This document shows positions 44,247 to 59,382 of a stretch of DNA of 64,000 nt, piece by piece. Origin of the DNA: Flexivirga aerilata (lineage in GTDB: Bacteria > Actinomycetota > Actinomycetes > Actinomycetales > Dermatophilaceae); contig NZ_JABENB010000001.1 of assembly GCF_013002715.1 (NCBI RefSeq), forward strand, positions 806,001 to 870,000, in the 5' to 3' direction. Position 1 is the first letter of the stretch; every line of letters starts with the position of its first letter. Made by a program: the position numbers and the translations under genes. The notes under the pieces were generated by a model, which saw only the letters and a list, made by a program, of their open reading frames with translations, was not told the origin of the DNA and made no database searches.

Positions 44247-44810
44247 TCAGTCCTCGACGGCCGGCGCGTAGCCGTCGCCGTGCTTGTCGCGCAGGAGTTC
44301 GGCGAGCGCGGCGCGGCCGCGGGCGCACCGGGACTTGATCGTGCCCTCGGCGACACCGAGCACCTGGGCGGCCTCGGAGACGGGCAGGCCCTGCATGTCG
44401 ACGAGGGTGAGGGCGAGTCGCTGGCCCTCGGGGATCTTGCCGAGGGCTTCCTGGACGTCGAGGCGTACGACGGTGCTGCCGTGCACGTCGTGCCGGTCGG
44501 CTAGGTCGTACTCGGGCAGCTCGGAGGTCGGCTTGATCCGGCGCAGCCGGTCCAGGCAGGCGTTGACGATGATCCGGTGCAGCCAGGTCGTCACCTGTGC
44601 GTCGCCGCGGAAGGAGTCGGCCCGCCGGAAGGCCGAGATGAAGCCGTCCTGCACGGCATCCGCTGCGAGCTCGGGGTCGCGCGTGGTGCGCAGCGCCACC
44701 GCCCACATCCGGTCCTTGTGCCGCCGGAAGAGCTCCCCGAACGCGTCAGGGTCACCGGCGCAGTGAGCCGCGAGCAGCTCGCGGTCGTTGCGCTCGGCGG
44801 GGTCGGTCAC
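44247..44810 (-). CDS. sigM: ECF RNA polymerase sigma factor SigM
   Basis: 187 aa from a GTG that overlaps the stop of the pseudokinase gene (GTGA). Region 2 is AFGELFRRHKDRMWAVALRTTRDPELAADAVQDGFISAFRRA split over residues about 22-62, with WLHRIIVNACLDRLRR; region 4 is GLPVSEAAQVLGVAEGTIKSRCARGRAALAE. Synteny with trxB, the anti-sigma gene and murJ-linked genes supports SigM. It should respond to envelope or oxidative stress. Confidence 0.92.
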   Translation of the reverse strand: MTDPAERNDRELLAAHCAGDPDAFGELFRRHKDRMWAVALRTTRDPELAADAVQDGFISAFRRADSFRGDAQVTTWLHRIIVNACLDRLRRIKPTSELPEYDLADRHDVHGSTVVRLDVQEALGKIPEGQRLALTLVDMQGLPVSEAAQVLGVAEGTIKSRCARGRAALAELLRDKHGDGYAPAVED

Positions 44811-46549
44811 GACAGCACCTGGATCTCGTTGATTCGCTCGCGGTATTCGCCGGTGTCCTGCTGGCTCAGCTGGGTCACCCACACCGTGATGTATTTGCCG
44901 GTGGCGTCGTTCAGGGTAGCGGTCTGGGTGCCGGAGCCGGTCAGCGTCGCGGCCGGCTGCTTGGTGCTCACCGGGCCGACCTCGTCGGTGACGTAGAAGT
45001 TGATCGTCGACGGCCCACCGGTGGTGGTGATCTTGATGCTGCCGACCTTCTGGCTGGAGCCGAGATTGAGCAGCAGGCCGGTGCCGCTCTTGACTCCGCC
45101 GAGGGCGGCCGAGCCGTAGCGGAAGCTCTGCCAGTAGGTCGAGGGGTCGCCGTCGATGACGTTGCGCATCATCTGCGGGTTCTCGGAGCTGCCGGTGCCG
45201 TAGTAGCCGACGTAGGTGATGTCGATCGGCGTGGCCGAGGGGGATGGCGAGCTGCTCGGGCTGGCCGATCGGGAGGCGGAGGCGGACGCTGATGGCGACG
45301 CCGACTGCGAGGTCGCCCCTGCTGCGGCCTTGTCGCTACCGCCGCCGATGCCGCGCAGGCCGATGAAGGCGAACACGACTGCGACCAGGACCAGCAGCGC
45401 CACGAGCAGGAGCGCGAGCTTGCTGCTGCTGCGGTCGGGCTCGAAGCGCCCGGTCAGTCCGGGGACCGGCGGTTCGAGTTCGGTGAACGACGGGTCGTAG
45501 TCGTCGTCGTGCGCGGCCGGCGGCCGGGCGGTGCGCTCGCGCGCCGCGTCGAGGACCGACCGGGAGATCTGGGCCGTCTCGTCGGCGTCGTGGTCCGCCT
45601 GGGGCACCGGTGCCGTGGCCCGCGAATCCGTTGCGGCGTCGGTGTTTTCGCGATCGTCGGGGGCTTTCGCGAGAGCGGGTCGGCCCGGCATACGGGTGGC
45701 AGAGGGGGCGCCGCCGGGCACCGACTGCAGTGCTGCCGCGGGGCCGGCGGATGCCGGACGGGACGGGCGGCGGCCGCTGTCGGAGACGCGCTCGGAGGAC
45801 CAGGGTGCGAGCTGCCGGGCGAGTTCGCCGGGAGTGCGTGGTCCCTCGTCGGCGCCGAGCGTGGTGCGGCAGAGCGTGTCGAGGTCGCCGGGGACGCCGG
45901 GGGCGAGTTCGCTCGGGGCGGGTAGTTCGCCGTCGGCGCGGCGTTCGGCGTCGAGGAGGCCGGGCACCGGCTCGTCGCCGGGCCAGCGGGAGGTGAGTCC
46001 GGCATACGCGATCTCGACGAGGGCGACGGTGTCGATGCGGGACGCCTCGTCCGAGGAGACATCGTCGGTGCCGGCGAGCGCGGCGTCGGTGGGCAGGCCG
46101 AGCACGGAGACCGCGCCGTCGGGTGAGCGCACGATGTCGTGCGGGGTGAGGCGCAGGTGGTGCAGGCCGCGCGCGGCGGCGGCACCGAGCCCGCTTGCCG
46201 CTTCGCCGATGAGCCGGCGTACCTCCTCGGCGGGGAGGCGGTCGAACTGCAGCAGTGACGCCATCGACTCCGCGCCGTGCAGCGCCTCGGTGATGACGTA
46301 TGCGGTGCCGTCCTGCACCCCCACGTCGAGCACGCGCGGCAGGTGGTGGTCCTCGACGCCGGCCGCGCGGCGGGCGCTGTCGAGCGCGGCGTCGGCGTGT
46401 GCCGAGGTCGCCCGGAACACGGTTGCGGTGACTTCGCGGTCGAGGGTGGAGTCGAAGGCGATCCACAACTCCTGGTCGTCGCGTTGCGCGAGCATCCGCG
46501 TCAGCGTGTAGCGGTCCGCCAGCACGGTGTCTTCGCCGATGCCCTGCAC
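44807..46549 (-). CDS. MurJ-partner pseudokinase with C-terminal discoidin-like domain
   Basis: 580 aa. Residues about 10-270 have a kinase fold without catalytic residues: the VAIK lysine is missing (TLDREVTATVF), the HRD loop reads LRLTPHDIV, and there is no DFG. A Pro/Ala/Asp-rich linker follows, then one membrane helix (LALLLVALLVLVAVVFAFIGL, near 390), a Ser/Pro linker and an extracytoplasmic F5/8-type beta-sandwich (FWQSFRYGSAA-like region to INEIQVL). This is the layout of the C-terminal half of mycobacterial Rv3910 (MviN). It probably recruits FHA proteins to control peptidoglycan precursor flipping. Here it is separated from murJ by 5 kb of accessory genes. Confidence 0.85.
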   Translation of the reverse strand: MQGIGEDTVLADRYTLTRMLAQRDDQELWIAFDSTLDREVTATVFRATSAHADAALDSARRAAGVEDHHLPRVLDVGVQDGTAYVITEALHGAESMASLLQFDRLPAEEVRRLIGEAASGLGAAAARGLHHLRLTPHDIVRSPDGAVSVLGLPTDAALAGTDDVSSDEASRIDTVALVEIAYAGLTSRWPGDEPVPGLLDAERRADGELPAPSELAPGVPGDLDTLCRTTLGADEGPRTPGELARQLAPWSSERVSDSGRRPSRPASAGPAAALQSVPGGAPSATRMPGRPALAKAPDDRENTDAATDSRATAPVPQADHDADETAQISRSVLDAARERTARPPAAHDDDYDPSFTELEPPVPGLTGRFEPDRSSSKLALLLVALLVLVAVVFAFIGLRGIGGGSDKAAAGATSQSASPSASASASRSASPSSSPSPSATPIDITYVGYYGTGSSENPQMMRNVIDGDPSTYWQSFRYGSAALGGVKSGTGLLLNLGSSQKVGSIKITTTGGPSTINFYVTDEVGPVSTKQPAATLTGSGTQTATLNDATGKYITVWVTQLSQQDTGEYRERINEIQVLS

Positions 46550-46752: not shown

Positions 46753-47148
46753 TCAGGGCAGTGGTGCGTCGCTGTGCAGCATCGAGGTGACGACCGCGCG
46801 GAGCGCGGTGGCTTGGCCGATGGTGCGTTGTTCGGCGCCCCAGTGCGCCCAGGCGCCGGCCGGCAGTCGGACGTGGCCGGAGGGTGCGGTCGGGGCAGTG
46901 TTGATGAGGTGGTCCGCGCGACGGCGGGCGAGTCGGGCGAGCAGGTCCAGTCCGGCGACGAGTTGTGACAGGTGCAATCCCCTGATCTGCAGGTGGCCTT
47001 CCTCCAGCTTCGCATCGACCGCCTGCTGGTCGAGCAGGCCGGAGATCTCGTGCACCAGGTGCAGGCACAAGTCGTGGTCCCACCGCTCGGCAAGCGGGAC
47101 GTGGATGACCGCCGGGCGTCCCAACCGCAGACCGGACTGCTTTTCCAT
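46753..47148 (-). CDS. Unknown 131-aa protein, copy A of a duplicated family
   Basis: 131 aa from the ATG MEKQSGLRLG, which has GAGG 6 nt upstream; this matches the 130-aa length of copy B at 49860. Shared features with copy B: a GLR start, an LxxLLxGL-like segment (HLSQLVAGLDLLARL), then VRLPAGAWAHWGAEQRTIGQATALRAVV, i.e. LP-x3-W-x2-W and an ALR helix. It looks like a small soluble alpha/beta or helical protein. No family is recognised. It is divergent from XRE regulator A, with a 20-bp palindrome in the spacer. Confidence 0.75.
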   Translation of the reverse strand: MEKQSGLRLGRPAVIHVPLAERWDHDLCLHLVHEISGLLDQQAVDAKLEEGHLQIRGLHLSQLVAGLDLLARLARRRADHLINTAPTAPSGHVRLPAGAWAHWGAEQRTIGQATALRAVVTSMLHSDAPLP

Positions 47149-47182
47149 GGTGACCTCGAATCGGTGTTTGAAGCTGTCACCA

Positions 47183-47202
47183 ATGTCCTCTCTAGAGGAC
47201 AT
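47183..47202. promoter_or_regulatory. Operator A1
   Basis: ATGTCCTCTCTAGAGGACAT: perfect 9-bp arms with a 2-bp centre, 35 bases before the 131-aa gene start. It shares the RTGTMCTS-N4-SAGKACAY pattern with the palindrome upstream of copy B. Confidence 0.8.
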
Positions 47203-47313: not shown

Positions 47314-47661
47314 ATGATGGGGTCGATGGCCGCGATCGATGACCTGACACCAAACCTCGCGCTGCGAGCGTCCCTCGCAGCCGAGCGGCTCGACCTCACT
47401 CCTGGCGCGACTCGGTCGAGGCTTCAAGAGGTTGGGCTTCCAGTCGCTCGGAGTTTCATCTACGCGATCTTCGACGGCAGTGCACGCAACCCGAACTATC
47501 GCGTCGTCATCGGACTGGCCGCCGTGCTGGGTGTCCGACCCGCCTGGTTTCTCGATGCTTTTGAAGACGGGGTAACGGACGAGGAGATGCTGCCGCTATA
47601 CGTTTTAGGCTCGAAGGACGACGCCTCGGCTGTTTCGCCAGACGGCGATGAAGCACCCTAG
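47314..47661 (+). CDS. XRE-type regulator A (EspR-like HTH)
   Basis: 115 aa; the ATG at 47326 is an alternative start. A five-helix XRE DNA-binding domain is seen: SRLQEVGLPVARSFIYAIFDGSARNPNYRVVIGLAAVLGVRPAWFLD split over residues about 36-85, reminiscent of EspR/SinR-type domains in Actinomycetes, followed by a 25-residue acidic tail. It is a paralogue of regulator B at 51330. It lies divergent from the 131-aa gene with two operators between them, and its last 57 bases overlap the convergent MFS gene. Confidence 0.85.
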   Translation: MMGSMAAIDDLTPNLALRASLAAERLDLTPGATRSRLQEVGLPVARSFIYAIFDGSARNPNYRVVIGLAAVLGVRPAWFLDAFEDGVTDEEMLPLYVLGSKDDASAVSPDGDEAP

Positions 47662-48855
47662 GCATGCCGCCGTGGCAATGGCGCCGAGCACTTCCGCGGT
47701 GTGATTGATACCCAGCGCGGCCGCAACGAGCCCAGTGATGAGCGAGCCGACCGGCTCGATGCCACCGGTTGCGACCGAAATGACTGAGAATACGCGCCCG
47801 GTAAGGGATTCGGGCACGTCCTCTCTGGCGAACCCGCTCAGCATCGGCGCGACCGGTCCGATGGTGAGGCCCATGACGAATGCACAACCGATCGTGAGGG
47901 CTTGACTGGTCGCCAGACCAATTCCGATGACGGCGGCGGAAGACAGGGTGGCGCCACCGACCCCGATCAGGAGTCCGCCACGGGTAGAAATATTCGTGAG
48001 GCGCAGGGTCATCGCTGTACCAAGGGTGATCCCTATGCCGTAGGCCCCGAACGAGCCTCCATATGCCCCTGCATCCCAGCCGGCATGGCGCGCCTTCAGC
48101 GGCAGGATGGCCATTACAGCTGCAGCGCTGATGAGGTTCACGACGCCTTGTGTCGTGATCGTCCACCGCAAAATCGGGTGCTTCTTGACGTAGTCGAGGC
48201 CTTCTCTGACGGAGGAGTCGTCGGCGTCTGCGACGACGATCTCCTTCTCCGGCGTACGTGCAAGACGCCCGAGTATTGCCAAGGTCACGAGGAGAGCGGC
48301 ACCAGCAGCCAGTGACGCTGCCGATACGCCTCCATGCCCCAGCAGCCATCCGCCCGCGAAAGCGCCCGCAGCTTGGGCGAACCGGGACGAGACACGTTCG
48401 ATTTTGATCGCGGTGCCGCGACCGCTGCGGGGCAGAAATTCCGTCGGATACTTCTGCAGCGCAGGGTCGTGATACCCAGCGACCGCCCCAATTGCAAAGG
48501 TAACTGCCAGGACCACCACGAGACGCCATGCCCCGATCACCGACGTTGCGACCGCGGCCCAGAGCAAGAACAAGGCCATTCGCAACGGCATCGTGCGGCG
48601 CAGCACCTTGCCGGCGCCGACCCGATCTGCCGACAAGCCACCGTGAAAGAGGAACAACACGTGAGGGATCGAGCCAGCAGCGAGTACGAGACCTGTGTAC
48701 ACGCTGCTATGTGCGCCGGACGCTACCCATCCAAGTGTCACCAGCCAGAGCGCGTCGGCCGCGACGTCAAGAACGTAAACAGTCAGGAACGCGCGAAAGT
48801 TCGGAACGGCGAGCACCTGGCTCGCTGACCATCGGGTCGCCCGCTCAGTATTCAT
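47605..48855 (-). CDS. MFS transporter A
   Basis: 416 aa from MNTERATRW, which aligns with the start of its paralogue at 58138. Twelve membrane helices in two halves; conserved blocks shared with the paralogue are ALWLVTLGWVASGA, GAVAGYHDPALQKYPTEFLPRSGRGTAIKIERV written in two neighbouring segments, and MGLTIGPVAPMLSGFAREDVP. It probably exports a drug-like compound or peptide. It follows winged-helix regulator A with an 11-base overlap, so regulator and transporter are one operon. Confidence 0.9.
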   Translation of the reverse strand: MNTERATRWSASQVLAVPNFRAFLTVYVLDVAADALWLVTLGWVASGAHSSVYTGLVLAAGSIPHVLFLFHGGLSADRVGAGKVLRRTMPLRMALFLLWAAVATSVIGAWRLVVVLAVTFAIGAVAGYHDPALQKYPTEFLPRSGRGTAIKIERVSSRFAQAAGAFAGGWLLGHGGVSAASLAAGAALLVTLAILGRLARTPEKEIVVADADDSSVREGLDYVKKHPILRWTITTQGVVNLISAAAVMAILPLKARHAGWDAGAYGGSFGAYGIGITLGTAMTLRLTNISTRGGLLIGVGGATLSSAAVIGIGLATSQALTIGCAFVMGLTIGPVAPMLSGFAREDVPESLTGRVFSVISVATGGIEPVGSLITGLVAAALGINHTAEVLGAIATAACLGCFIAVWRNSRGVVLRA

Positions 48856-49438
48856 CGGGGTACGGGAAGGCATGCGTGATGGCGACGACTGGGCGATACC
48901 TCGGATCGTCCACTGCTCTTCCCTCCGCCATCTCCTCGACCTTCCTCATGAGTGCCCGCATCTCCTCGGCGATCTCTCGCAACTCGTCAACGGTGAGCCT
49001 GACGATTGCATCGGAATTCTCGGCCGCGGAGCGCCACTCCTTCGGCCACCTCGGTGCGACGTCCACCCAATCCACCGCCAACTCAGCTTCGGCAGCCAGC
49101 AGGACTTTCATCCATCCGGACGCTGCCTGGGCATAAGACTCGGTCCGGTCAAACTCGTCTAGGTCGACGCCGCCGAGAACCGCGGCCCATTGGAGACTGC
49201 GTGGCTTCGCGGGATCACCCTCGGCCGTCACATAGCCGATCGCCTTCATCTCACGAAGGTGCACCGACATGCTCGCCTCTTTGACGCCAACGCGTTTGGC
49301 AAGCTCACGCGAGGTGCACGGGCCGAGTGTCCGGAGGGATTCGTACGCGCGCCATCGAACGCTGACCGAAAGCTTCTTCAGAGCTTCAATGGACGGCGGA
49401 TTTGGTGTTCGGTTAACTGCTGCTGGCTCGTCGGACAC
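48845..49438 (-). CDS. Winged-helix (ArsR-like) regulator A
   Basis: 197 aa from the GTG at 49438. TAGGCT lies exactly 7 nt before this codon, the same distance as in paralogue B, so a leaderless start is favoured over the ATGs at 49504-49507. The winged helix is VRWRAYESLRTLGPCTSRELAKRVGVKEASMSVHLREMKAIGYVT over residues about 25-70. The rest is a helical C-terminal domain ending PVVAITHAFPYP, as in actinobacterial ArsR-family MFS regulators. It heads the operon with MFS transporter A, and a 13-codon peptide gene diverges from it 118 bp away. Confidence 0.88.
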   Translation of the reverse strand: MSDEPAAVNRTPNPPSIEALKKLSVSVRWRAYESLRTLGPCTSRELAKRVGVKEASMSVHLREMKAIGYVTAEGDPAKPRSLQWAAVLGGVDLDEFDRTESYAQAASGWMKVLLAAEAELAVDWVDVAPRWPKEWRSAAENSDAIVRLTVDELREIAEEMRALMRKVEEMAEGRAVDDPRYRPVVAITHAFPYPDEY

Positions 49439-49556
49439 AGCGTGCAGCCTAGTGACTTGCACGAGCACTACCGCTAACCTTGGAGAGTCGTCTCTGTGCC
49501 CCATCACAGTGGACCCGCTGCAGGAGTCGAGATCTCACGTGAAGGAGTCGCTCGTT

Positions 49557-49598
49557 ATGCGCACTTGTGAAAACGTCAAGGGTGGCGGAGGCGGCTGA
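49557..49598 (+). CDS. Micropeptide A, MRTCENVKGGGGG
   Basis: 13 codons plus stop. GAAGGAG lies 9 nt before the ATG. A possible promoter (gtgact 49452-49457, 18 nt, taacct 49475-49480) gives a leader of about 70 nt, and a terminator hairpin begins 24 bases after the stop, so the whole transcript would be about 165 nt. The gene is head-to-head with winged-helix regulator A. The same arrangement, with a 14-codon peptide, recurs beside regulator B. There is no homologous protein family I can name. It could be a signalling peptide, a regulator of the MFS system, or a leader peptide. Confidence 0.6.
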   Translation: MRTCENVKGGGGG

Positions 49599-49621
49599 CC
49601 GCCTGCGACCCACCAGCGAAG

Positions 49622-49650
49622 AGCCTCGGCGCCGTTTGGCGGCCGGGGCT
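49622..49650 (+). terminator. Terminator after micropeptide A
   Basis: A 12-bp stem with one bulge (agcctcggcgcc / ggc-ggccggggct, tetraloop gttt) is followed by ttct. Confidence 0.65.
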
Positions 49651-49767
49651 TTCTCGTCGGCAGCGTCGGGTGGTTCGGCCGCTCGCGGTACTTGCGTCAC
49701 AACTCAGACAGTAGTGAGCCACCCGACCGAATAGCGGTTATCCACAAGCGCATCTTCGAAGCATGTT

Positions 49768-49797
49768 GAAGGCCCTGGGCTGACGCCCAGGGCCTTC
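49768..49797. terminator. Terminator after the 130-aa gene B
   Basis: GAAGGCCCTGGGC / GCCCAGGGCCTTC, 13-bp perfect arms with a tgac loop, 62 bases beyond the stop of the minus-strand 130-aa gene. A perfect but isolated DnaA box TTATCCACA lies just before it at 49738-49746. Confidence 0.75.
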
Positions 49798-49859
49798 ACG
49801 TCCCCCAACCCCCCCCACGACCGCGTCCTGCACTCCCCTGAGCTGCAGGCGCTGCCGGG

Positions 49860-50252
49860 TCAGGCTGTCTTCGCGAATTCGAGTGCGTCGCGCAGCGCTG
49901 CGATCTGGTCGAGCTTGCGCTGGGCGTCCTCCCACCGGTGCCAGAGGAACTCCGGCAGCTGGACCACGCCCTCGTCGTTGATGATCGCGGCGTCCTCCAC
50001 CCGCGAGACGGTGGCGCGGGCGTCGTCGTCGACTGCCTCCAGCCCGTGCAGCAGATCCGGCAGATCGATGCCGTCCACGTCGAGCACCTCGTCGTGCAGT
50101 GCGACCGCGACGGTCCGGCGCCGGTCGACGGCATAGGCGGCGCTCTCCACCAGCGAGATGCACGCGCCGGAATCGACCTTCGAGCCCAGGTTGGCGTGGA
50201 TCCGGTCCCAGCCGCCACGAAGCCCTGCCGTGTCCTCAACGACGTAGGTCAT
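49860..50252 (-). CDS. Unknown 130-aa protein, copy B of a duplicated family
   Basis: 130 aa from an ATG with AGAGGAAG upstream. It aligns along its length with the 131-aa copy A: GLRGGWDR start, DLPDLLHGLEAV, an AII segment, then VVQLPEFLWHRWEDAQRKLDQIAALRDAL (the LP-x3-W-x2-W motif and ALR helix). It is acidic and lacks signal peptide or membrane segment. No known family is recognised. It stands alone with its own upstream palindrome (operator B); the presumed cognate XRE regulator B lies 1.1 kb away in the murJ operon. Confidence 0.78.
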   Translation of the reverse strand: MTYVVEDTAGLRGGWDRIHANLGSKVDSGACISLVESAAYAVDRRRTVAVALHDEVLDVDGIDLPDLLHGLEAVDDDARATVSRVEDAAIINDEGVVQLPEFLWHRWEDAQRKLDQIAALRDALEFAKTA

Positions 50253-50370
50253 GTCACTTCCTCTGTACTCGTGCCAATACAGACTGTGCCGCTGAGATCT
50301 AGTGAACCACGCGAATGCGTCGGTGAAGCCCTGATCAGCGTAATGTTTTGGTAAGGGAACGGTAAAAAGT

Positions 50371-50390
50371 GTGTACTGTGTTCAGTACAC
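50371..50390. promoter_or_regulatory. Operator B
   Basis: GTGTACTGTGTTCAGTACAC: perfect 8-bp arms with a 4-bp centre, 118 bases before the 130-aa gene B. In register it matches operator A1 as RTGTMCTS-N4-SAGKACAY, suggesting recognition by the paralogous XRE protein. Confidence 0.75.
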
Positions 50391-50400
50391 CCACCCGGGA

Positions 50401-50478
50401 CGTATGGCGCGACAGCTCTGCGCCATACGGCCCCGGACATGCAACAAGGCTCCACGGACAACTCCGTGAAGCCTTGTT
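50401..50478. terminator. Double hairpin after micropeptide B
   Basis: Hairpin 1, 50443-50478: aacaaggct-c-cacgga pairs with tccgtg-a-agccttgtt around a caac loop. Hairpin 2, 50401-50429: CGTATGGCGC / GCGCCATACG with a 9-nt loop. Hairpin 1 begins 38 bases after the micropeptide B stop and should end its short mRNA before the operator of the 130-aa gene. Confidence 0.7.
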
Positions 50479-50515
50479 TCGTACGGGGGTAGACGTCTCT
50501 ACCGCTCACTCACCA

Positions 50516-50560
50516 TCAACGGCGGCGACGTCCCCCGATGACACTCTTCTTGTCGCGCAT
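50516..50560 (-). CDS. Micropeptide B, MRDKKSVIGGRRRR
   Basis: 14 codons plus stop on the minus strand, with GAGGAG 6 nt before the ATG. A good promoter lies upstream (TTAACG, 17 nt, TATACT), giving a leader of about 75 nt that can fold through ggaacc/ggttcc and actctgggg/cccccagagt pairings. A strong hairpin follows the stop. It is head-to-head with winged-helix regulator B, as micropeptide A is with regulator A. Both peptides begin MR, have a Val at 6-7 after charged/polar residues, and end in a Gly-Gly run. Function is unknown. Confidence 0.6.
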   Translation of the reverse strand: MRDKKSVIGGRRRR

Positions 50561-50641
50561 CGCATGCTCCTCGGTCAGGGGACTCTGGGGGGAGGGAGGA
50601 ACCCTCAGCACAGACAGCGGATCGGTTCCGCCATTCCCCAG

Positions 50642-50670
50642 AGTATAGGGACTGAGCAGTCGTCCGTTAA
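50642..50670 (-). promoter_or_regulatory. Promoter of micropeptide B
   Basis: On the minus strand TTAACG (50670-50665), 17-nt spacer, TATACT (50647-50642). This is one of the best sigma-70-type matches in the window. Confidence 0.7.
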
Positions 50671-50742
50671 CACATCGGTGCGGTGGAAATGCGCTGAATC
50701 CGTGCCTGGCTGCCGCCCAGATCGACGGATAGGCTCGCGGCG

Positions 50743-51318
50743 ATGACTGCCGAGACCCCGCTGCCCACCGCGGAGATCCTGCGAACCCTCGCGGTGCCCG
50801 CCCGCTGGCGCGCCTACGAAGCCCTGCGCAACTTCGGATCGATGCGTGGCCGTGACGTCGCCAAGCTGGTCAAGGTCTCCGAGGGGTCGATGCTCGCCCA
50901 CCTGCGCGAGCTGGAGCGGATCGGCTTCGTCACCTCCACCGGCGACGCGAGCAAGTCCCGGGCGCAGGTCTGGTCCGCGGTCGCCGGCGGCGTCCGGCTC
51001 ATGGAGTACGACCGCACCGAGGACTACGCGGTGGAAGCGGACGCATGGCTCAAGGTGCGCCTCGAGGCGCAGGCCGACGTCCTCCAGGACTGGGTCACGG
51101 TCGCCGGGAACTGGCCGCGGGACTGGCAGTCGGCCGCCGAGATGTACGACAGCTTCCTGCACCTCACCCGCGACGAACTCGTCGAGCTCGGCAACGAACT
51201 GCACGAGCTGATGGACCGCTGGCACAACGCACACAGCGCCCCCGGGCCCGGCACCAAGCCGGTCGCCGTCTCGACCAACGCCGTGCCCTACCCGCACAGC
51301 TACGACCCGCCGGAGTGA
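50743..51318 (+). CDS. Winged-helix (ArsR-like) regulator B
   Basis: 191 aa. TAGGCT ends 7 nt before the ATG, so the mRNA is probably leaderless, as for paralogue A. The winged helix is seen at ARWRAYEALRNFGSM, DVAKLVKVSEGSMLAHLRELERIGFVT (residues about 20-65), with a helical C-terminal domain and the ending KPVAVSTNAVPYP. It is clearly a paralogue of the regulator at 48845. No transporter follows; the related MFS transporter B is 7 kb away. A 14-codon peptide gene diverges from it. Confidence 0.88.
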   Translation: MTAETPLPTAEILRTLAVPARWRAYEALRNFGSMRGRDVAKLVKVSEGSMLAHLRELERIGFVTSTGDASKSRAQVWSAVAGGVRLMEYDRTEDYAVEADAWLKVRLEAQADVLQDWVTVAGNWPRDWQSAAEMYDSFLHLTRDELVELGNELHELMDRWHNAHSAPGPGTKPVAVSTNAVPYPHSYDPPE

Positions 51319-51329
51319 CCCTGCCGCGC

Positions 51330-51674
51330 TCAGGGCTCCCGGAGGTCGTCGACCTGTTCGGCCGCGGGCGCCCCGTCCTCGGGCCGGATGCGGTATTGCC
51401 CGAGCAGCAGCGCGTCGCGGGCCGGTGAGTCGGTCAGCACGAAGAACCACCGCACGTCCACCTGCAGCACCCGGGCGAGCCCGGCGATGAGCTCGTGCCG
51501 CGGGTCGGCGACCTCGCCGCGCATCAGCGTGTAGATGTAGTTGCGGCTCACCGGCAGCCCGAGCGCCTGCAGCCCGCGCCAGATGTCCGGCGCGGTCAGG
51601 CCGATCGCGTCCGCGGCGAGGTTGAGCCGGAAGTGGAAGTCCGGCACCAGCGGGGAGTGGCCCGTCGCCGTCAT
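51330..51674 (-). CDS. XRE-type regulator B (EspR-like HTH), coupled to murJ
   Basis: 114 aa; start overlaps the murJ stop by 4 bases (ATGA), so it is translationally coupled to murJ. The HTH aligns with regulator A: IWRGLQALGLPVSRNYIYTLMRGEVADPRHELIAGLARVLQVDVRWFF over residues about 30-78. The tail has AAEQVDDLREP. A dedicated regulator inside a lipid II flippase operon is unusual. By paralogy it should bind operator B and control the 130-aa gene B. Confidence 0.85.
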   Translation of the reverse strand: MTATGHSPLVPDFHFRLNLAADAIGLTAPDIWRGLQALGLPVSRNYIYTLMRGEVADPRHELIAGLARVLQVDVRWFFVLTDSPARDALLLGQYRIRPEDGAPAAEQVDDLREP

Positions 51675-53557
51675 CGCGACACCAGCCGGCGCACCCCGCC
51701 GAGCTTGCTCAGCACGACGCTGACCAGCTCCTCCACCTCACGCACGTGCAAGCGGCGGGCGATCACGACGTACAACGCCATGAAGCTGACCGCCGCACCG
51801 ACGAGGATGACCAGGTTGGCGGTGCGGGTGGAGTCGCCGAGGACGAACGACAGCGCATAACGCACCGCGAAGGCCACCACCAGGGCGAGCACGCCGGAGA
51901 CGGCGAGGCGCACCCAGGTCTGCATCACGTCGACGATGTGCAACCGCGGCAGGCGCCGCTGCCGCAGCCACCGGAAGCCGAAGTAGGCCTCCACGACGTA
52001 CGCGATCGAGCCGGCGAGCGCGACGCCGACGCCGACCCAGGCCCCCGGCAGCAGCAGCGACGGTATGGCGAAAATCGCGGTCACGATCGTGCACACGACC
52101 TGCATGACGAACGGTGTGCGGGCGTCCTCGTAGGCGAAGAACACCCGCTGCACCACCACGATCACGGTGAACGGCACGATGCCGAGCATCATCGCGATCG
52201 TCTGCCGCTCGACCGCGGTGCCGAGCTCGGCGCCGTAGAAGAAGTGCGCCAGTGGACCCGCGGCGACCAGGGCGCCGAAGGTGGCCGCGATCGTCGCCAC
52301 CGACGACAGCCGCAGACTGAGGCGCGCGTCCTCGGTCACCGCGCGGGTCGAGCCGGCGTGCGCGGCCCGCGACATACGGGTGAAGAGGGCGGTGATCAGG
52401 CTCAGCGTGACCAGCGAGTGCGGCAGCATGAAGAAGAGGAACGCGTAGCTCTGCGCCTGGTTGGCGGTCGGCTGCGAGTTGAGCACGTTGTTGTTGACGA
52501 TCTGCACGCCGATCTGCTGCACCACCACCGCGGCGGACGCCCAGCCGGCGATCTTGGACGTGGCGCGCAGGCCGACCCCGCGGAAGGTGAAGTTGGGCCG
52601 CCAGCGGTAACCCGACCGGCGCAGCGGCACGATCAGCACCAGGGCCTGCGCGACGATGCCGAGGGTCGCGCTGCCGGCGAGGATCAACGTCTGCGTGGTC
52701 GTCCAGTCGCCCGGGTCGCGCACCGGCCGGTGGTCCGCGGTGACCAGCAGCCAGACGATGCCGGCGATCGCGAAGATGTTGGCAAGCGCCGGCGCCCACA
52801 TCAGCGCCCCGAACCGGCTGCGCGCGTTGAGCACCTCGCCGAACAGCGTGTAGAGGCCGTAGAAGAACAGCTGCGGCATACAGATCAGCGTGAAGACGAC
52901 GCCGAGCTTGAACGTGTCGCCGCTGGAGGCGACGTAGCCGATCTTGAACACCAGCGGCGACGCCGCGGTGAAGACGATCGTCGCGCCGAGCAGGATCGTC
53001 ATCGCGAGCGTGAGCAGCCGGTCGGTGTAGGCCTGGCCGCCGTCCTTGTGGGTCAACGCCCGGGTGATCTGCGGCACCAGCACCGCGTTGATCACACCGC
53101 CGGCGAGCAGCAGGTAGATCGCGTTGGGCAACTGGTTGGCGGTGGTCCAGACGTTGCCGACGGTGTCGAGGATCAGCGCGCCGAGCAGGATGGTGCGCAC
53201 GAAGCCGAGCATCCGCGACACCAGCGTGCCGGCCGCCATGATCGCGCTCGCCCGGCCGATGCCGCCGCCCGCCGACTGCTCCTGCCCGGGTATGGCGGTG
53301 CCCGCGTCCGGACCGGCCGCGCCGGTCGCGGCGTCGGTCGGCACACCGGACCCGGCGGCGGCGTCGGCCTCGAGCTGCGCACGCCGGGCGGCGACCACCT
53401 CCGGGTCGGCGACGGGCAGGTAGCCGGAGTCCTCGCCGATCCACTCGGCGTAGAGCGCGCCGAGGCTCGCGCCCGACTCCGGCGCCTGCGGCGGACGGGG
53501 CGGGGCGGCGTGCTGCGAATACAGCTGTCCCAGGCTCGGGCGGCTGTCGTCAGTCAT
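51671..53557 (-). CDS. murJ: Lipid II flippase MurJ
   Basis: 628 aa from MTDDSRPSLGQ; upstream in-frame starts are antisense or overlap the DUF6049 gene. An N-terminal cytoplasmic extension of about 95 residues carries two copies of a SLGxLY motif (SLGQLYSQ and SLGALYAEW). The MurJ core follows with 14 membrane helices, starting GIGRASAIMAAGTLVSRMLGFVR with the essential arginines. It flips lipid II for peptidoglycan synthesis. It overlaps the DUF6049 gene by 8 bases. The kinase-like partner domain is encoded separately 5 kb away. Confidence 0.93.
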   Translation of the reverse strand: MTDDSRPSLGQLYSQHAAPPRPPQAPESGASLGALYAEWIGEDSGYLPVADPEVVAARRAQLEADAAAGSGVPTDAATGAAGPDAGTAIPGQEQSAGGGIGRASAIMAAGTLVSRMLGFVRTILLGALILDTVGNVWTTANQLPNAIYLLLAGGVINAVLVPQITRALTHKDGGQAYTDRLLTLAMTILLGATIVFTAASPLVFKIGYVASSGDTFKLGVVFTLICMPQLFFYGLYTLFGEVLNARSRFGALMWAPALANIFAIAGIVWLLVTADHRPVRDPGDWTTTQTLILAGSATLGIVAQALVLIVPLRRSGYRWRPNFTFRGVGLRATSKIAGWASAAVVVQQIGVQIVNNNVLNSQPTANQAQSYAFLFFMLPHSLVTLSLITALFTRMSRAAHAGSTRAVTEDARLSLRLSSVATIAATFGALVAAGPLAHFFYGAELGTAVERQTIAMMLGIVPFTVIVVVQRVFFAYEDARTPFVMQVVCTIVTAIFAIPSLLLPGAWVGVGVALAGSIAYVVEAYFGFRWLRQRRLPRLHIVDVMQTWVRLAVSGVLALVVAFAVRYALSFVLGDSTRTANLVILVGAAVSFMALYVVIARRLHVREVEELVSVVLSKLGGVRRLVSR

Positions 53558-55988
53558 CGGTGGTGCTTTCGGTCGTTCGGGTCGGGCCGTCGGGCAGTTT
53601 GGCGACGCGCTCGCCGGCGTCGACGATCGCATCATCGCGTGCGGGCGAACCCGCGGGTGCGGGCGCCGACGCGGTGCGCGGGCCGCGGCGCAAGGCGCGG
53701 CGCAGCCCGAAGATCAGCACCAGCACCGCCAGCGCGCCGAGCACCCACATGATCCACCCCGACGTGGGCCGGACGTTGACGGTCAGCTCCGCGGGCGCGT
53801 CGGAGCTCGGCAGCGTGGTGCCCTGCGGGGTGCTGAGCAGTACGTCGATCGGGACGTTGCCGCTGCCGACCGCCTTGATCCCGAACTTCGCGGCGCCACG
53901 GGAGTTGGCGCGGATCTGGACCGTCGTCGACGGGCTCTCGACCTTCAGCTGGTACTTGCGGGGTTGCAGGGTCAGGGTCACGTCGTGGACGGCGCGGTTG
54001 AGGTCGTTGATGACCGTGACGGTCACGTCGCCGGAGTTGGCGAAGAAGTTGATCGTCGAGTCGCGCACCGACACCTTGTCGAGCAGTGCGGTCACGGCCA
54101 TGTCGCCGCGGTCGGCCACCGAGGTCGCCGCCGACGCGTTGCCGCGCCACCGGGTCGACCCGATCACGTCGAGCGCCCGGCGCCGGTCGTCCATCAGGGC
54201 GTTGCTGTCGACCAGGATCGACTGCAGGGCGGTGAGGCGCCGCCGCGCGTCCGGCAGGCCGTCGAGCAGCGCGGCGGTCGCGGCCGGTGCCTCCGGGCGC
54301 GGGTATGGCGGGCCGGGCCGCGGCGTGCCGAGCAGGGTCGTCACCGGCGCGGACCGCAGTGCCGTGGTCGTGTCCGATCCGGTGCGCAGGTTGACCCAGG
54401 GCGCGGCATTCATCGCGCGCACCTGCGCGGCCAGCACCTGGGGGTCCGCGCCGCCGGTGCGGGGCGCGAGCAGCGCCAGCGAGCGCGCGGTGCCGGGCGA
54501 CTGCTGGTAGGTGGCCATCAGCTCGGCGAGCAGCAGGTTGGCCTGCTGCCCGGCGGAGCTCGACGGGGTGCCGAACGTCGCGGAGAGACTCTCGTCATAC
54601 GCGAGGACGCCGGAGGTGCCGGCGACGCGCGCGGTCGCCGACGGCTGGTCGCGGACGGGCAGGGCCCGTGACGGCAACAGCGCGATCGGGGCTGCCTTGT
54701 CGGTGCCGGAGAGCTTGCGGGCGGCGGCGGTCACCGCGGCGCCCGGCACGGTGCCGACCGGTGCGAGCACCCGCTGCGTGCTTACCCCGCGCAGGTCGGT
54801 GAGTATGCCGCGGGACAGGTCGCGGGTGGCGAGGGCCTGCCCGGCCGAGCCGGCCGTGCGCAGTGCGCCGAGGTCGGGGTCGTCCCACGGCAGCCACCAG
54901 ACCGACTGGGCGGAGTCCAGGCCGGTGAGCCGCTGCTTCAGGCCGGCGACCAGGCCGTCGACGCTGTCGGTCGAGGCGGGCGGCGCGGAGCTGCTGGACG
55001 CACTCGACGGGCTCGACGAGCTGGACGAGCCGGACGAACTCGGCGAACCGGACGAACCCGATGCATTCGAGGAGTCGGAGGCGGCGGGCCCCGTGCTGGT
55101 CGCCGCGCCCGAGGACGTCGGCCGCGGTGACTCGGTCGCGCTGGGCGCCGCGGACGACGAGGCGCTCGGGGCCGGGGTGTTCGGGGTCGGAGTGCTCGGC
55201 GGCGCCGTGGTGGCGGCCGGGACGTTGTCGTCGGCGCCGACCGGCGGGTCGACGACCTCGGGGTCGATCGCCCAGGTGACCGGCAGACCGGCGAACGCGT
55301 CGAGGGTCTGCTGGATGCGCGAGTCCGGCCCGATCGCGCGCCGCCACGCGGCGACCCGGTCACCACCGCTCGGGCCGTAGAGCGCCGGGTCGGCCGGCAG
55401 TGTCAGCGGCACGACCACGCTCACCTGCAGCGGGGCGGTGACGGCGCCGTTGCGAAACTCCAGGGTGGTGCGGGTGGTGCCGCGCACCGCCGAGCCGGAC
55501 TGCGCCGCGTCGTCGGTGACCGCGACCGTCATCGGCAGTGAGGCGAGTCCGTAGCTGAAGCGCAGGCGTTCGGCGGGGATGGTCACGCTGAAGGTGACGG
55601 TCTGGCCGGCCGCGATGGCGGCGGGCTGCCCGGACGCGACCTGTGCCGTCGCGATGCGGCTGCGCCCCTCGCTCCACGCGTCGACCTCGGCATGGGTGTC
55701 GAGCAGCTGATCGGCGAGCGACACCCGCACCACCGGCTGCTGGATGTCGCTCCCGCCGGTGTTGGTGATCGAGCCGGAGACGGTCACCGGGCTGTTGCGG
55801 GCGGCGACGACGGGGTCATTCGCGGCGAGCCGGATGTCGGCCGAGGTGGAGAGGTCGGTCGCCGCGTGCGCGGCTCCCGGCATACCGAAGGGGAGAAGGA
55901 CGAGCAGTGCCGTCAGGACGACGGCGAGCAGGTGGCTACGCAGTGCCGGCGAGATGCTGCCATGCGGTCTGGACGATGCGGCGCTCAT
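53550..55988 (-). CDS. DUF6049 secreted membrane-anchored protein
   Basis: 812 aa (Rv3909-like). A signal peptide (LLAVVLTALLVLLPFGMPGAAHA) starts a large extracytoplasmic region: an Ig-like beta domain, a Ser/Pro/Ala low-complexity insert (about residues 215-330, SSGSPSSSGSSSSSSPSS), a long alpha/beta domain and a C-terminal beta domain, ending with one membrane helix (WIMWVLGALAVLVLIFGL) and a basic tail. Function is unknown; constant linkage to murJ suggests an envelope-assembly role. It overlaps murJ by 8 bases and the NUDIX gene by 53 bases. Confidence 0.88.
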   Translation of the reverse strand: MSAASSRPHGSISPALRSHLLAVVLTALLVLLPFGMPGAAHAATDLSTSADIRLAANDPVVAARNSPVTVSGSITNTGGSDIQQPVVRVSLADQLLDTHAEVDAWSEGRSRIATAQVASGQPAAIAAGQTVTFSVTIPAERLRFSYGLASLPMTVAVTDDAAQSGSAVRGTTRTTLEFRNGAVTAPLQVSVVVPLTLPADPALYGPSGGDRVAAWRRAIGPDSRIQQTLDAFAGLPVTWAIDPEVVDPPVGADDNVPAATTAPPSTPTPNTPAPSASSSAAPSATESPRPTSSGAATSTGPAASDSSNASGSSGSPSSSGSSSSSSPSSASSSSAPPASTDSVDGLVAGLKQRLTGLDSAQSVWWLPWDDPDLGALRTAGSAGQALATRDLSRGILTDLRGVSTQRVLAPVGTVPGAAVTAAARKLSGTDKAAPIALLPSRALPVRDQPSATARVAGTSGVLAYDESLSATFGTPSSSAGQQANLLLAELMATYQQSPGTARSLALLAPRTGGADPQVLAAQVRAMNAAPWVNLRTGSDTTTALRSAPVTTLLGTPRPGPPYPRPEAPAATAALLDGLPDARRRLTALQSILVDSNALMDDRRRALDVIGSTRWRGNASAATSVADRGDMAVTALLDKVSVRDSTINFFANSGDVTVTVINDLNRAVHDVTLTLQPRKYQLKVESPSTTVQIRANSRGAAKFGIKAVGSGNVPIDVLLSTPQGTTLPSSDAPAELTVNVRPTSGWIMWVLGALAVLVLIFGLRRALRRGPRTASAPAPAGSPARDDAIVDAGERVAKLPDGPTRTTESTTDD

Positions 55989-58137: not shown

Positions 58138-59382
58138 ATGAGCGCTGACGCGCCAATTCGCTGGACCCCGCGTCAGGTCATGCGTGTCGGATCCTTCCGG
58201 CTGTTGCTCGTCGTGAGCTTCCTCGACGTCTGCGCCGACGCCATGTGGCTGGTCACGCTCGGCTGGGTCGCCGCGTCCGCGCCCAACAGTTTCGTCACCG
58301 GCCTGATCCTCGCCGCCGCGGCGATCCCGCAGCTGGCGTTCGTGCTGATCGGCGGGCTGCACACCGACAAGTACGGCGCAGGCACCATCGCCCGGCGCAC
58401 CACCCCGATCCGGCTCGCGCTCTTCCTGCTCTGGGCCGGGGTCGCGGTGGTCACGCTCGGCCCGTCGCGGCTGGTCGGCGTGCTCGTCGTCTCGCTGCTG
58501 ATCGGTGCGGTCGCCGGCTTCCACGACTCGGCGATGGAGACCTACCCGACCGAGTTCCTGGTGCCCAAGGCACGCGGCACCGCGGTCACGGTCGAGCGGA
58601 TCGTGCTGCGCGCGGCGCAGGCGGCCGGCGGTTTCCTCGGCGGTCTGCTGCTCGGCAGCGGCGGCGTCTCCGCCCCGGCGCTCGGCGCGGCGGCCCTGCT
58701 CGCGGTGGCGCTCTTCACCCTCACCGTGCTGCGCCGGCGGCCGACCATCGTCGAGGAGCCCGAGCCCGACGAGGAGCCGGTCCAGCTCACGGTCCGGGCC
58801 GGCGTCGACTTCGTCGTGCGGCACCCGGTGCTGTCCAACACGATCTCGGTGCAGGGCGTGGTCAACCTGGTCACCGGCGGCGCCCTCATCGCACTGCTGC
58901 CGATCAAGGCGCAGCGCATGGGGTGGGGCGCGCAGGACTACGGCTCCGCCTTCGGCGCCTACGGGCTCGGCATCACCGTCGGCACGGTCATCTCGCTCAC
59001 GCTCACCGGCCTCACGACCCGGGCCCGCACCCTCCTCGGGGTCGCGATGTCGGTGGTCGCCTGCCTCGCCGTGGTGATCATCGGCCTCGCGGACACCCCC
59101 GGCGTCGCGACGGCCGCGGTCTTCCTGATGGGCCTGGCGCTCGGGCCGGTCGGGCCGATGCTCACCGGCTACGCCCGGGAGAAGACACCGACCCAGCTCG
59201 TCGGCCGCGTCATGGCGATCCTCGGGCTGGTGACCGCCGGCCTGGAGCCGATCGGGTCACTGCTCGCCGGTGTGCTCGCCGGCGTGTTCACCGTCGACCA
59301 GGCGGCGCTCGGCCTCGGCGGGGTCGGCGCGGTGGCCTGTGCGGTCGGGGCGCTGCGGCTGCTGCCGCTGCGGGACTACTAG
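58138..59382 (+). CDS. MFS transporter B
   Basis: 414 aa with GGAGG upstream of the ATG. It is clearly a paralogue of MFS transporter A: FLDVCADAMWLVTLGWVA, GAVAGFHDSAMETYPTEFL and MGLALGPVGPMLTGYAREKTP are the shared blocks. Twelve helices, no large soluble domain. Substrate unknown, probably export. It lies alone between pcnA and the F420-type gene, away from regulator B, to which it may still respond. Confidence 0.9.
   Translation: MSADAPIRWTPRQVMRVGSFRLLLVVSFLDVCADAMWLVTLGWVAASAPNSFVTGLILAAAAIPQLAFVLIGGLHTDKYGAGTIARRTTPIRLALFLLWAGVAVVTLGPSRLVGVLVVSLLIGAVAGFHDSAMETYPTEFLVPKARGTAVTVERIVLRAAQAAGGFLGGLLLGSGGVSAPALGAAALLAVALFTLTVLRRRPTIVEEPEPDEEPVQLTVRAGVDFVVRHPVLSNTISVQGVVNLVTGGALIALLPIKAQRMGWGAQDYGSAFGAYGLGITVGTVISLTLTGLTTRARTLLGVAMSVVACLAVVIIGLADTPGVATAAVFLMGLALGPVGPMLTGYAREKTPTQLVGRVMAILGLVTAGLEPIGSLLAGVLAGVFTVDQAALGLGGVGAVACAVGALRLLPLRDY

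Follow-up and report, generated by a model that had tools for sequence, protein, structure and literature searches.

The window, that is, the whole stretch of 64,000 nucleotides from Flexivirga aerilata analysed here (contig NZ_JABENB010000001.1, positions 806,001 to 870,000), contains two micropeptide genes, A and B, each divergent from the gene of an ArsR-like winged-helix regulator (wHTH). Together with their neighbours they form two mirror-image units: unit A consists of peptide, wHTH, MFS transporter and XRE regulator, unit B of peptide, wHTH and XRE, with no adjacent MFS gene. The features, in coordinates of the window, are as follows.

47314..47661, plus strand: EspR-like XRE regulator A, convergent with the MFS gene (aligned with XRE-B; EspR profile match)
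47605..48873, minus strand: MFS transporter, overlapping the end of wHTH-A (PF07690, 2.6e-23; PF05977, 2.3e-18)
48845..49438, minus strand: wHTH-A, ArsR-like winged-helix regulator with a leaderless GTG start (Pfam MarR_2/HTH_5 below cut-off, scanned from the upstream start)
49446..49451, minus strand: -10 element TAGGCT, 7 nt before the wHTH-A start
49475..49480, plus strand: -10-like TAACCT of peptide A, without a good -35 (read from the sequence)
49557..49598, plus strand: micropeptide gene A, MRTCENVKGGGGG, 13 codons, Shine-Dalgarno (SD) match AAGGAG at 9 nt spacing, divergent from wHTH-A, hairpin 3' of the stop
49617..49657, plus strand: terminator-like hairpin 3' of peptide A (folded; best 45-nt window -29.2 kcal/mol; weak U-tract)
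49860..50252, minus strand: ORF C, 130 aa, between both peptides (homologue in the Flexivirga meconopsidis cassette block, L031, 1.7e-45)
50443..50478, minus strand: strong hairpin 3' of peptide B (folded; best 45-nt window -28.3 kcal/mol; weak U-tract)
50516..50560, minus strand: micropeptide gene B, MRDKKSVIGGRRRR, 14 codons, SD match AGGAG at 6 nt, divergent from wHTH-B, hairpin 3' of the stop
50642..50670, minus strand: sigma-70-like promoter of peptide B, TTAACG-17-TATACT, -10 at 50647-50642 (promoter scan)
50730..50735, plus strand: -10 element TAGGCT, 7 nt before the wHTH-B start
50743..51318, plus strand: wHTH-B, ArsR-like winged-helix regulator with a leaderless ATG start
51330..51674, minus strand: EspR-like XRE regulator B, convergent with wHTH-B (aligned with XRE-A; EspR profile match)

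An initial annotation of this DNA had placed both micropeptide ORFs head-to-head with leaderless wHTH genes, behind well-placed ribosome binding sites and with TAGGCT at precisely 7 nt upstream of either wHTH start, all of which agrees with the checked sequence. It had also given each peptide gene a promoter with a leader of 70-75 nt and a terminator after the stop. The promoter holds for B, as a consensus match with a leader of about 75 nt, but for A there is only the -10-like TAACCT. A promoter scan of the 6-kb region returned one match, that of peptide B, where 0.7 would be expected by chance, and the promoter proposed for A was not among its matches. Strong hairpins indeed follow both stops and are plausible as terminators, but their U-tracts are weak and neither was among the matches of a terminator scan. 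Since the DNA is GC-rich and hairpins also follow 3 of 3 control ORFs and 3 of 3 wrong-strand ORFs, a hairpin behind the stop does not discriminate and was dropped as a criterion. Among the genomes searched, none was related closely enough for a codon-level test of A and B.

Further elements lie in the same region. The leader and promoter of peptide B contain a 16-nt inverted repeat (81%; 50588-50639), and an inverted-repeat search found no repeat common to four control regions of the short peptide type described below. Upstream of ORF C, for which Pfam, NCBIfam and PHROG gave no match, lies a hairpin or palindrome, GTGTACTGAACACAGTACAC (50371-50390), scored by a scan as terminator-like on the minus strand and possibly an operator. 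A GC-rich hairpin 3' of peptide A (49773-49795, plus strand) weakly matches Acido-Lenti-1; at E 0.063, under the family cut-off, this is the best match of an Rfam scan that returned no family at cut-off.

The block is flanked by what we take to be murJ (51671-53635, minus strand) and a kinase-like gene (44807-46549, minus strand). Between the latter and XRE-A lies a 149-aa ORF (46753-47202, minus strand) with no Pfam or NCBIfam match. Four congeners were compared. In two of them (G001 and G003) murJ directly adjoins the kinase gene, at a distance of about 160 and 210 bp, so the block either was inserted here or is ancestral and was lost elsewhere; in a third (G002) no kinase gene was seen in the 1.5 kb fetched. 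The fourth, Flexivirga meconopsidis (G004), carries a cassette block at the same site as the window and is the nearest named relative sharing the locus. Another MFS gene of the same subfamily lies at 58138-59382 on the plus strand (E 5e-110 to the cassette MFS profile); it was rejected as a cassette, with no wHTH or XRE gene alongside, and F. meconopsidis has two genes related to it near the same place.

Does this arrangement occur elsewhere? Defining a cassette as a small peptide gene with a wHTH and an XRE gene, often accompanied by an MFS gene, we found 19 cassettes in 14 genomes among the matches listed, all from the family of the window. Named by our genome handles, they are the two window copies A and B, two each in G004, G007 (Rudaeicoccus suwonensis), G027 (Branchiibius hedensis) and G502, and one each in G011 (an Intrasporangiaceae MAG), G440, G023, G014 (on a plasmid of Yimella sp. 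cx-51), G465, G583, G584, G500 and G029. A search with wHTH-B gave matches in 44 of the 58 genomes covered, for the most part general ArsR-type genes of low identity; the XRE partner was found in 6 of the 58, and eight of its ten places are cassettes. Profile searches with the XRE covered 186 genomes of the family (24 with a match) and 347 of the order (42), those with the MFS 184 genomes (61 with a match) and 179 (56). At most the best 30 or so loci were taken from each search, with the top candidates scored per genome, and within this scope no cassette was found outside the family of the window.

The XRE gene has a convergent orientation relative to the unit in all cassettes but G023 (18 of 19), where it is co-directional; its presence was a search criterion and is therefore no independent finding. 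A profile built from 17 cassette XREs matches EspR chains with E-values of 2e-16 to 2.7e-16. The MFS gene stands directly behind the wHTH gene in 14 of 19 cassettes and is missing from this position in window B, both G004 copies, G584 and one G027 copy. Among the matches listed, 18 of 56 XRE loci have a wHTH or MFS gene within 1.5 kb, all of them in the family of the window; of 58 MFS loci, 13 are accompanied by wHTH and XRE genes (again all in this family), 20 by the wHTH only and 25 by neither. Larger regions were annotated and dropped as non-cassettes at L140, L142-L148, L208, L209, L277 and L280-L284, as were earlier regions with a wHTH only (L034-L037). At L144, L145 and L146, from three genera, an EspR-like gene sits in a similar neighbourhood lacking wHTH and MFS. 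The two wHTH queries found no phage or virus copies; they returned five plasmid records and one, an MFS query none, and the Yimella plasmid NZ_CP072114.1 was examined.

The wHTH fold is supported by PDB profile matches to SrnR (8.5e-9), ArsR and SmtB, and structure-model matches agree with an ArsR/MarR winged helix; below the top match, the model alignments (ArsR, CzrA, MarR; VIA-align) span mainly the winged helix. Pfam gave matches below the curated cut-off for wHTH-A and none for wHTH-B, and no conserved Cys/His set was seen by eye in the wHTH alignment. The leaderless start with TAGGCT, which the initial annotation had taken as a mark of a special pair, proved to be a trait of the whole wHTH family and was discarded as evidence: TANNNT lies 6-7 nt before the start in 16 of 17 cassettes and likewise in 46 of 55 non-cassette homologues, with 0.19 of 17 expected in shuffles. 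As relatives without a peptide have the leaderless start too, the wHTH family would need no peptide ligand.

A candidate small peptide could be assigned in all 19 cassettes, in some of them weakly, and 18 of these are divergent from the wHTH gene. The exception, in G029, is co-directional and upstream of the wHTH gene, and was spotted on reading the sequence, after the divergent test had yielded nothing but an unrelated ORF. The candidates fall into three classes: eight short peptides, mostly ending in Gly or Arg, nine putative Sec-type precursors ending in CxxC, and two of an MDPAL type. Some are weak: G004a and G011 have a 4-nt SD match, G004b and G027b a GTG start, and G584 fails the SD criterion.

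The short class includes A and B, neither of which has a hydrophobic segment or signal sequence. Its other members are listed here.

G004: MKVRGSGG, and (V)VLLSGRGG from a GTG start
G011: M(M)PSMSTGGGR
G440: MHCSGRVGNGG
G023: MSTFDSSTGW
G007: three tandem genes, with a 66-residue peptide of eight NGTGR units

For the repeat precursor of G007, no sequence relatives were found at E 0.1. The Sec-CxxC peptides have 36-41 residues, an MK or MR start, a hydrophobic core and an A-x-A-like site, as judged by hydropathy (best 14-residue mean 2.06-2.85) and the A-x-A pattern. They end in CGWC, CWWC, CIMC, CTMC, CAICR, CGWC, CAVC, CSFC and CAVC. Three of the nine are called ORFs in public databases; that of the Yimella plasmid is annotated as WP_255427708.1, and a JGI-source protein matches the G500 peptide in all but one residue. 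The MDPAL peptides, both from cassettes without MFS, end in CSFR in G584 and in CAMR in G027, the latter read from a GTG start. Two further MDPAL-type ORFs (L137:4625, minus strand, and L139:6528, plus strand) are alike in two genera, with a longer ORF close behind each, and about 2 kb from the G440 cassette peptide lies a second SD-led peptide ORF with GTGR/GTGG motifs (L141:9835-9954, plus strand). The proposal to look for relatives that start with MR and end in a Gly run was thus partly fruitful: endings such as GSGG, TGGGR, NGTGR and GNGG fit, but one peptide ends in STGW and a second group is Sec-like with CxxC.

A strict test asked for an ATG start, an SD match of at least 5, 6-45 aa, a position within 380 nt and divergent orientation; its criteria were set after most cassettes were known. 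It is passed by 12 of 17 cassettes as against 3 of 55 wHTH controls, 3 of 17 on the wrong strand and 1.5 of 17 in dinucleotide shuffles (Fisher 1.4e-7), and by 10 of 15 with the window copies removed (Fisher 1.7e-6); these tallies include L031b, where the passing ORF is not the assigned peptide and is probably unrelated. With two later cassettes the count becomes 14 of 19, in which the passes at L031b and L278 are not the assigned peptide. Not caught by the test are G007, whose peptide is too long, G011 and G004a, with their 4-nt SD match, G584 and the second G027 copy. Among the 20 loci with wHTH and MFS and no XRE, none of the 17 usable ones passes. The shuffles put an SD-led divergent ORF at about 9% per locus, so that A or B alone would be weak evidence and it is the relatives that make the case.

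Two further comparisons concern the peptide ends. Among 154 SD-led ORFs in 17 cassette loci, ten end in CxxC and all ten are cassette peptides (one a nested start), as compared with a single further CxxC-ended ORF, at L277, in 1.09 Mb of other loci, many of which overlap cassettes. The four cassettes found last (G502 C1, G500, G502 C3 and G029) each have a CxxC precursor, in three of them divergent as predicted. Gly and Arg make up 29 of 40 positions in the last five residues of the eight short peptides, against a mean of 1.25 per ORF in the 154, some of which are the peptides themselves. For the six short peptides outside the window the enrichment has p=0.0002; this set takes in the weak G004 and G011 candidates, and two of its six members were picked by eye with weak starts.

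For the G007 repeat peptide the codons can be compared directly. Its eight NGTGR cores have five variable columns, all at third codon positions, where the unit offers 13 synonymous and 32 other possible changes, and the spacer residues are variable. Compared with one another, the three gene copies show 3/1, 7/1 and 6/0 synonymous/non-synonymous codon differences. This pattern of substitution shows protein-level constraint, for this peptide only.

In a tree of the 19 cassette wHTHs, a branch with support 99/98 separates the short type from the Sec and MDPAL types. On this tree the three peptide labels need two changes, the minimum, as against 7.9 in shuffles, of which 0 of 200 were as low; the short type thus goes with one regulator lineage. 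Sec and MDPAL are poorly separated (60/90), and G023 stands on a long branch. The two window proteins wHTH-A and wHTH-B group as sisters (99/95), so A and B diverged after a duplication. The conserved layout with changing peptide sequence, first noticed in the two window copies, therefore extends to 19 cassettes in 14 genomes, with peptide types that segregate with wHTH phylogeny.

Several cassettes have neighbours of the mobilisation type. A ribbon-helix-helix (RHH) gene adjoins 8 of 19, in seven of them just beyond the peptide and on its strand; five of these eight genes went into building the RHH profile. The Yimella RHH protein is similar to NikA, at an E-value (8.4e-6) that narrowly misses the curated cut-off, and its circular plasmid carries genes annotated as MobC, a TraM recognition domain protein and an SCO6880 family protein; the plasmid itself is typed as non-mobilizable. 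Genes with SLT, NlpC/P60 or M23 domains lie near three cassettes (G007 C5, G440 and G014). No mobilisation genes adjoin peptides A and B in the window. Such neighbours hint at a possible control of conjugation by the cassette.

What, then, are A and B? The cassette recurs, most copies carry an SD-led ORF at the predicted place, the peptide types differ, and several copies have mobilisation-type neighbours. A peptide facing a regulator, a type that tracks the regulator lineage, Sec-like precursors with a variable tail and a repeat-bearing precursor together make up the layout of peptide-receptor cassettes. In our preferred reading, to which we give a probability of about one half, A and B make up the variable part of a peptide-regulator cassette that recurs among relatives and is duplicated here, and that probably serves autoregulated signalling and perhaps controls plasmid transfer. 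The peptide would be made and then leave the cell, through Sec in the CxxC type and through the MFS protein or another route in the short type, and would act as an autoregulatory signal on the cytoplasmic regulators of its own cassette, whose promoter it faces. In plasmid copies the signal might time the mobilisation genes just beyond the peptide gene, while the two chromosomal copies in the window, having diverged after duplication, would represent two specificities. That A and B are translated, exported and bound is what we infer here. As to the earlier idea that the transporter exports the peptide, an MFS gene directly behind the wHTH in 14 of 19 cassettes fits a peptide-regulator unit with transport, but B has none adjacent, and since the CxxC type combines a Sec-like signal with an MFS gene, the latter need not be the exporter.

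The main rival, which we hold to be rather unlikely, is that the peptides are small exported antimicrobials of a bacteriocin-like kind, with the MFS protein for self-protection or export and the two regulators controlling production. Short Sec-like precursors with a C-terminal CxxC, an MFS gene beside most of them, the plasmid copy and fast sequence change would all fit; however, no recurring modification enzyme or immunity gene was noticed beside the cassettes, 5 of 19 lack an MFS gene directly behind the wHTH, and every copy has two regulators (XRE presence being partly a search criterion). It is improbable that the peptides are intracellular modulators, bound to the wHTH, XRE or MFS protein and never exported. 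The short type has no signal sequence and shares a control region with the wHTH gene, as such modulators might, yet Sec-like precursors occupy the corresponding position in nine relatives and the G007 repeats suggest processing. Metal-binding peptides working with an ArsR-type sensor and an MFS pump can be given hardly any credence: the regulator is ArsR-like and there are CxxC tails, whereas the short-type peptides, B included, lack CxxC, and the wHTH alignment, as described above, has no conserved Cys/His set by eye.

Two other explanations, each with a very small chance of being right, would take translation or A and B themselves out of the picture. If the RNA alone mattered, as a leader peptide or attenuator or as a small non-coding RNA ending in a hairpin, one might expect what is seen at the 3' ends, several Gly or Arg codons in a row right ahead of the stop and a hairpin behind it, and in 7 of 19 cassettes the RHH gene behind the peptide on the same strand. 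Beyond the hairpin of peptide B, too, lies ORF C on the strand of B. Peptide A, however, has no recognised gene 3' on its strand before the promoter of wHTH-B, the Rfam scan gave no family at cut-off, and the Sec-like precursors and the 66-residue repeat peptide with its synonymous variation point to translation. Alternatively, A and B could be chance ORFs in the intergenic region of a real cassette, even if other cassettes have peptides; the 9% per locus from shuffles allows for this, as does the fact that no conservation of A or B was seen in a close relative. Against it, both pass the strict test, both end in Gly/Arg like their relatives, and at 157 nt (A) and 203 nt (B) from the wHTH anchor they lie at distances similar to the 149-159 nt seen in three further copies of the short type.

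A wider version of the preferred reading is possible and somewhat doubtful: the cassette may represent an undescribed peptide communication in Actinomycetota, in which hypervariable ribosomal peptides (micropeptides with Gly/Arg ends, precursors with NGTGR repeats and Sec-CxxC precursors) would be sensed by the ArsR-like wHTH and/or the EspR-like regulator that their own cassette encodes. The system would govern the transfer of plasmids in Dermacoccaceae and related bacteria, and the window would have retained it as two copies next to murJ. Signals of Actinomycetota are typically small molecules made by enzymes, and peptides are the rule in Bacillota, according to PMC10075063. If true, ribosomal peptide signalling would be widened to another phylum and to unrelated receptor folds. 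The cassette occurs on actinomycete chromosomes and on a plasmid, its 19 peptide-regulator pairs in 14 genomes are directly testable, and genes of 8-14 codons can be found by their position beside a regulator. In the open-licence literature, no paper whose title or abstract start describes the cassette was found.

Several known systems share single traits with it. In microcin C7 the MccA heptapeptide starts with MRT, MccC is an MFS protein and MccB a ThiF-like modifying enzyme; the cassette has likewise a very small peptide starting with MRT and an MFS gene nearby, but no ThiF-like MccB was found by Pfam among the seven proteins of the window block. EspR of Mycobacterium tuberculosis (PDB 3qwg, 3r1f, 4ndw) matches the XRE partner by profile (E 2e-16), while the XREs of the window are shorter (114-115 aa), lie beside a wHTH unit and have a predicted DNA-binding role. 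Kfla_6221 of Kribbella flavida (PDB 4g6q) has no known function or peptide partner.

Compared with RRNPP systems, the cassette belongs to a different phylum and has an MFS gene in place of PptAB or Opp. In RRNPP systems, as described in PMC10075063, a propeptide of 10-100 aa adjoins the gene of a receptor of 250-500 aa with TPRs, and export is by Sec, in some cases by PptAB. With 13 and 14 aa and a position divergent from the wHTH gene, peptides A and B fall within this size and adjacency. The receptor candidates differ from the TPR protein of PMC10075063: the ArsR-like wHTH has 191 aa, the EspR-like protein 114 aa. Pfam gave no TPR match in the wHTH and XRE proteins of the window block, and judged by these predicted domains the cassette is not RRNPP, since the TPR receptor is missing. 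It resembles the RRNPP/RRNPPA systems of Bacillota in its small propeptide gene by a cytoplasmic regulator, its putative Sec precursors with a short variable C-terminus and its plasmid copies (PMC10075063), and also in propeptides with repeated units, as RRNPPA precursors with several pheromone units are known (PMC11343458). Closest in setting to a possible conjugation control are ICEBs1 with ImmR and RapI-PhrI and pLS20 with Rap-Phr. Unlike there, no Rap-like TPR protein occurs among the cassette genes scanned and conjugation control would here be read from the neighbours; as there, a repressor and a peptide cassette are found on a mobile element (PMC6540685).
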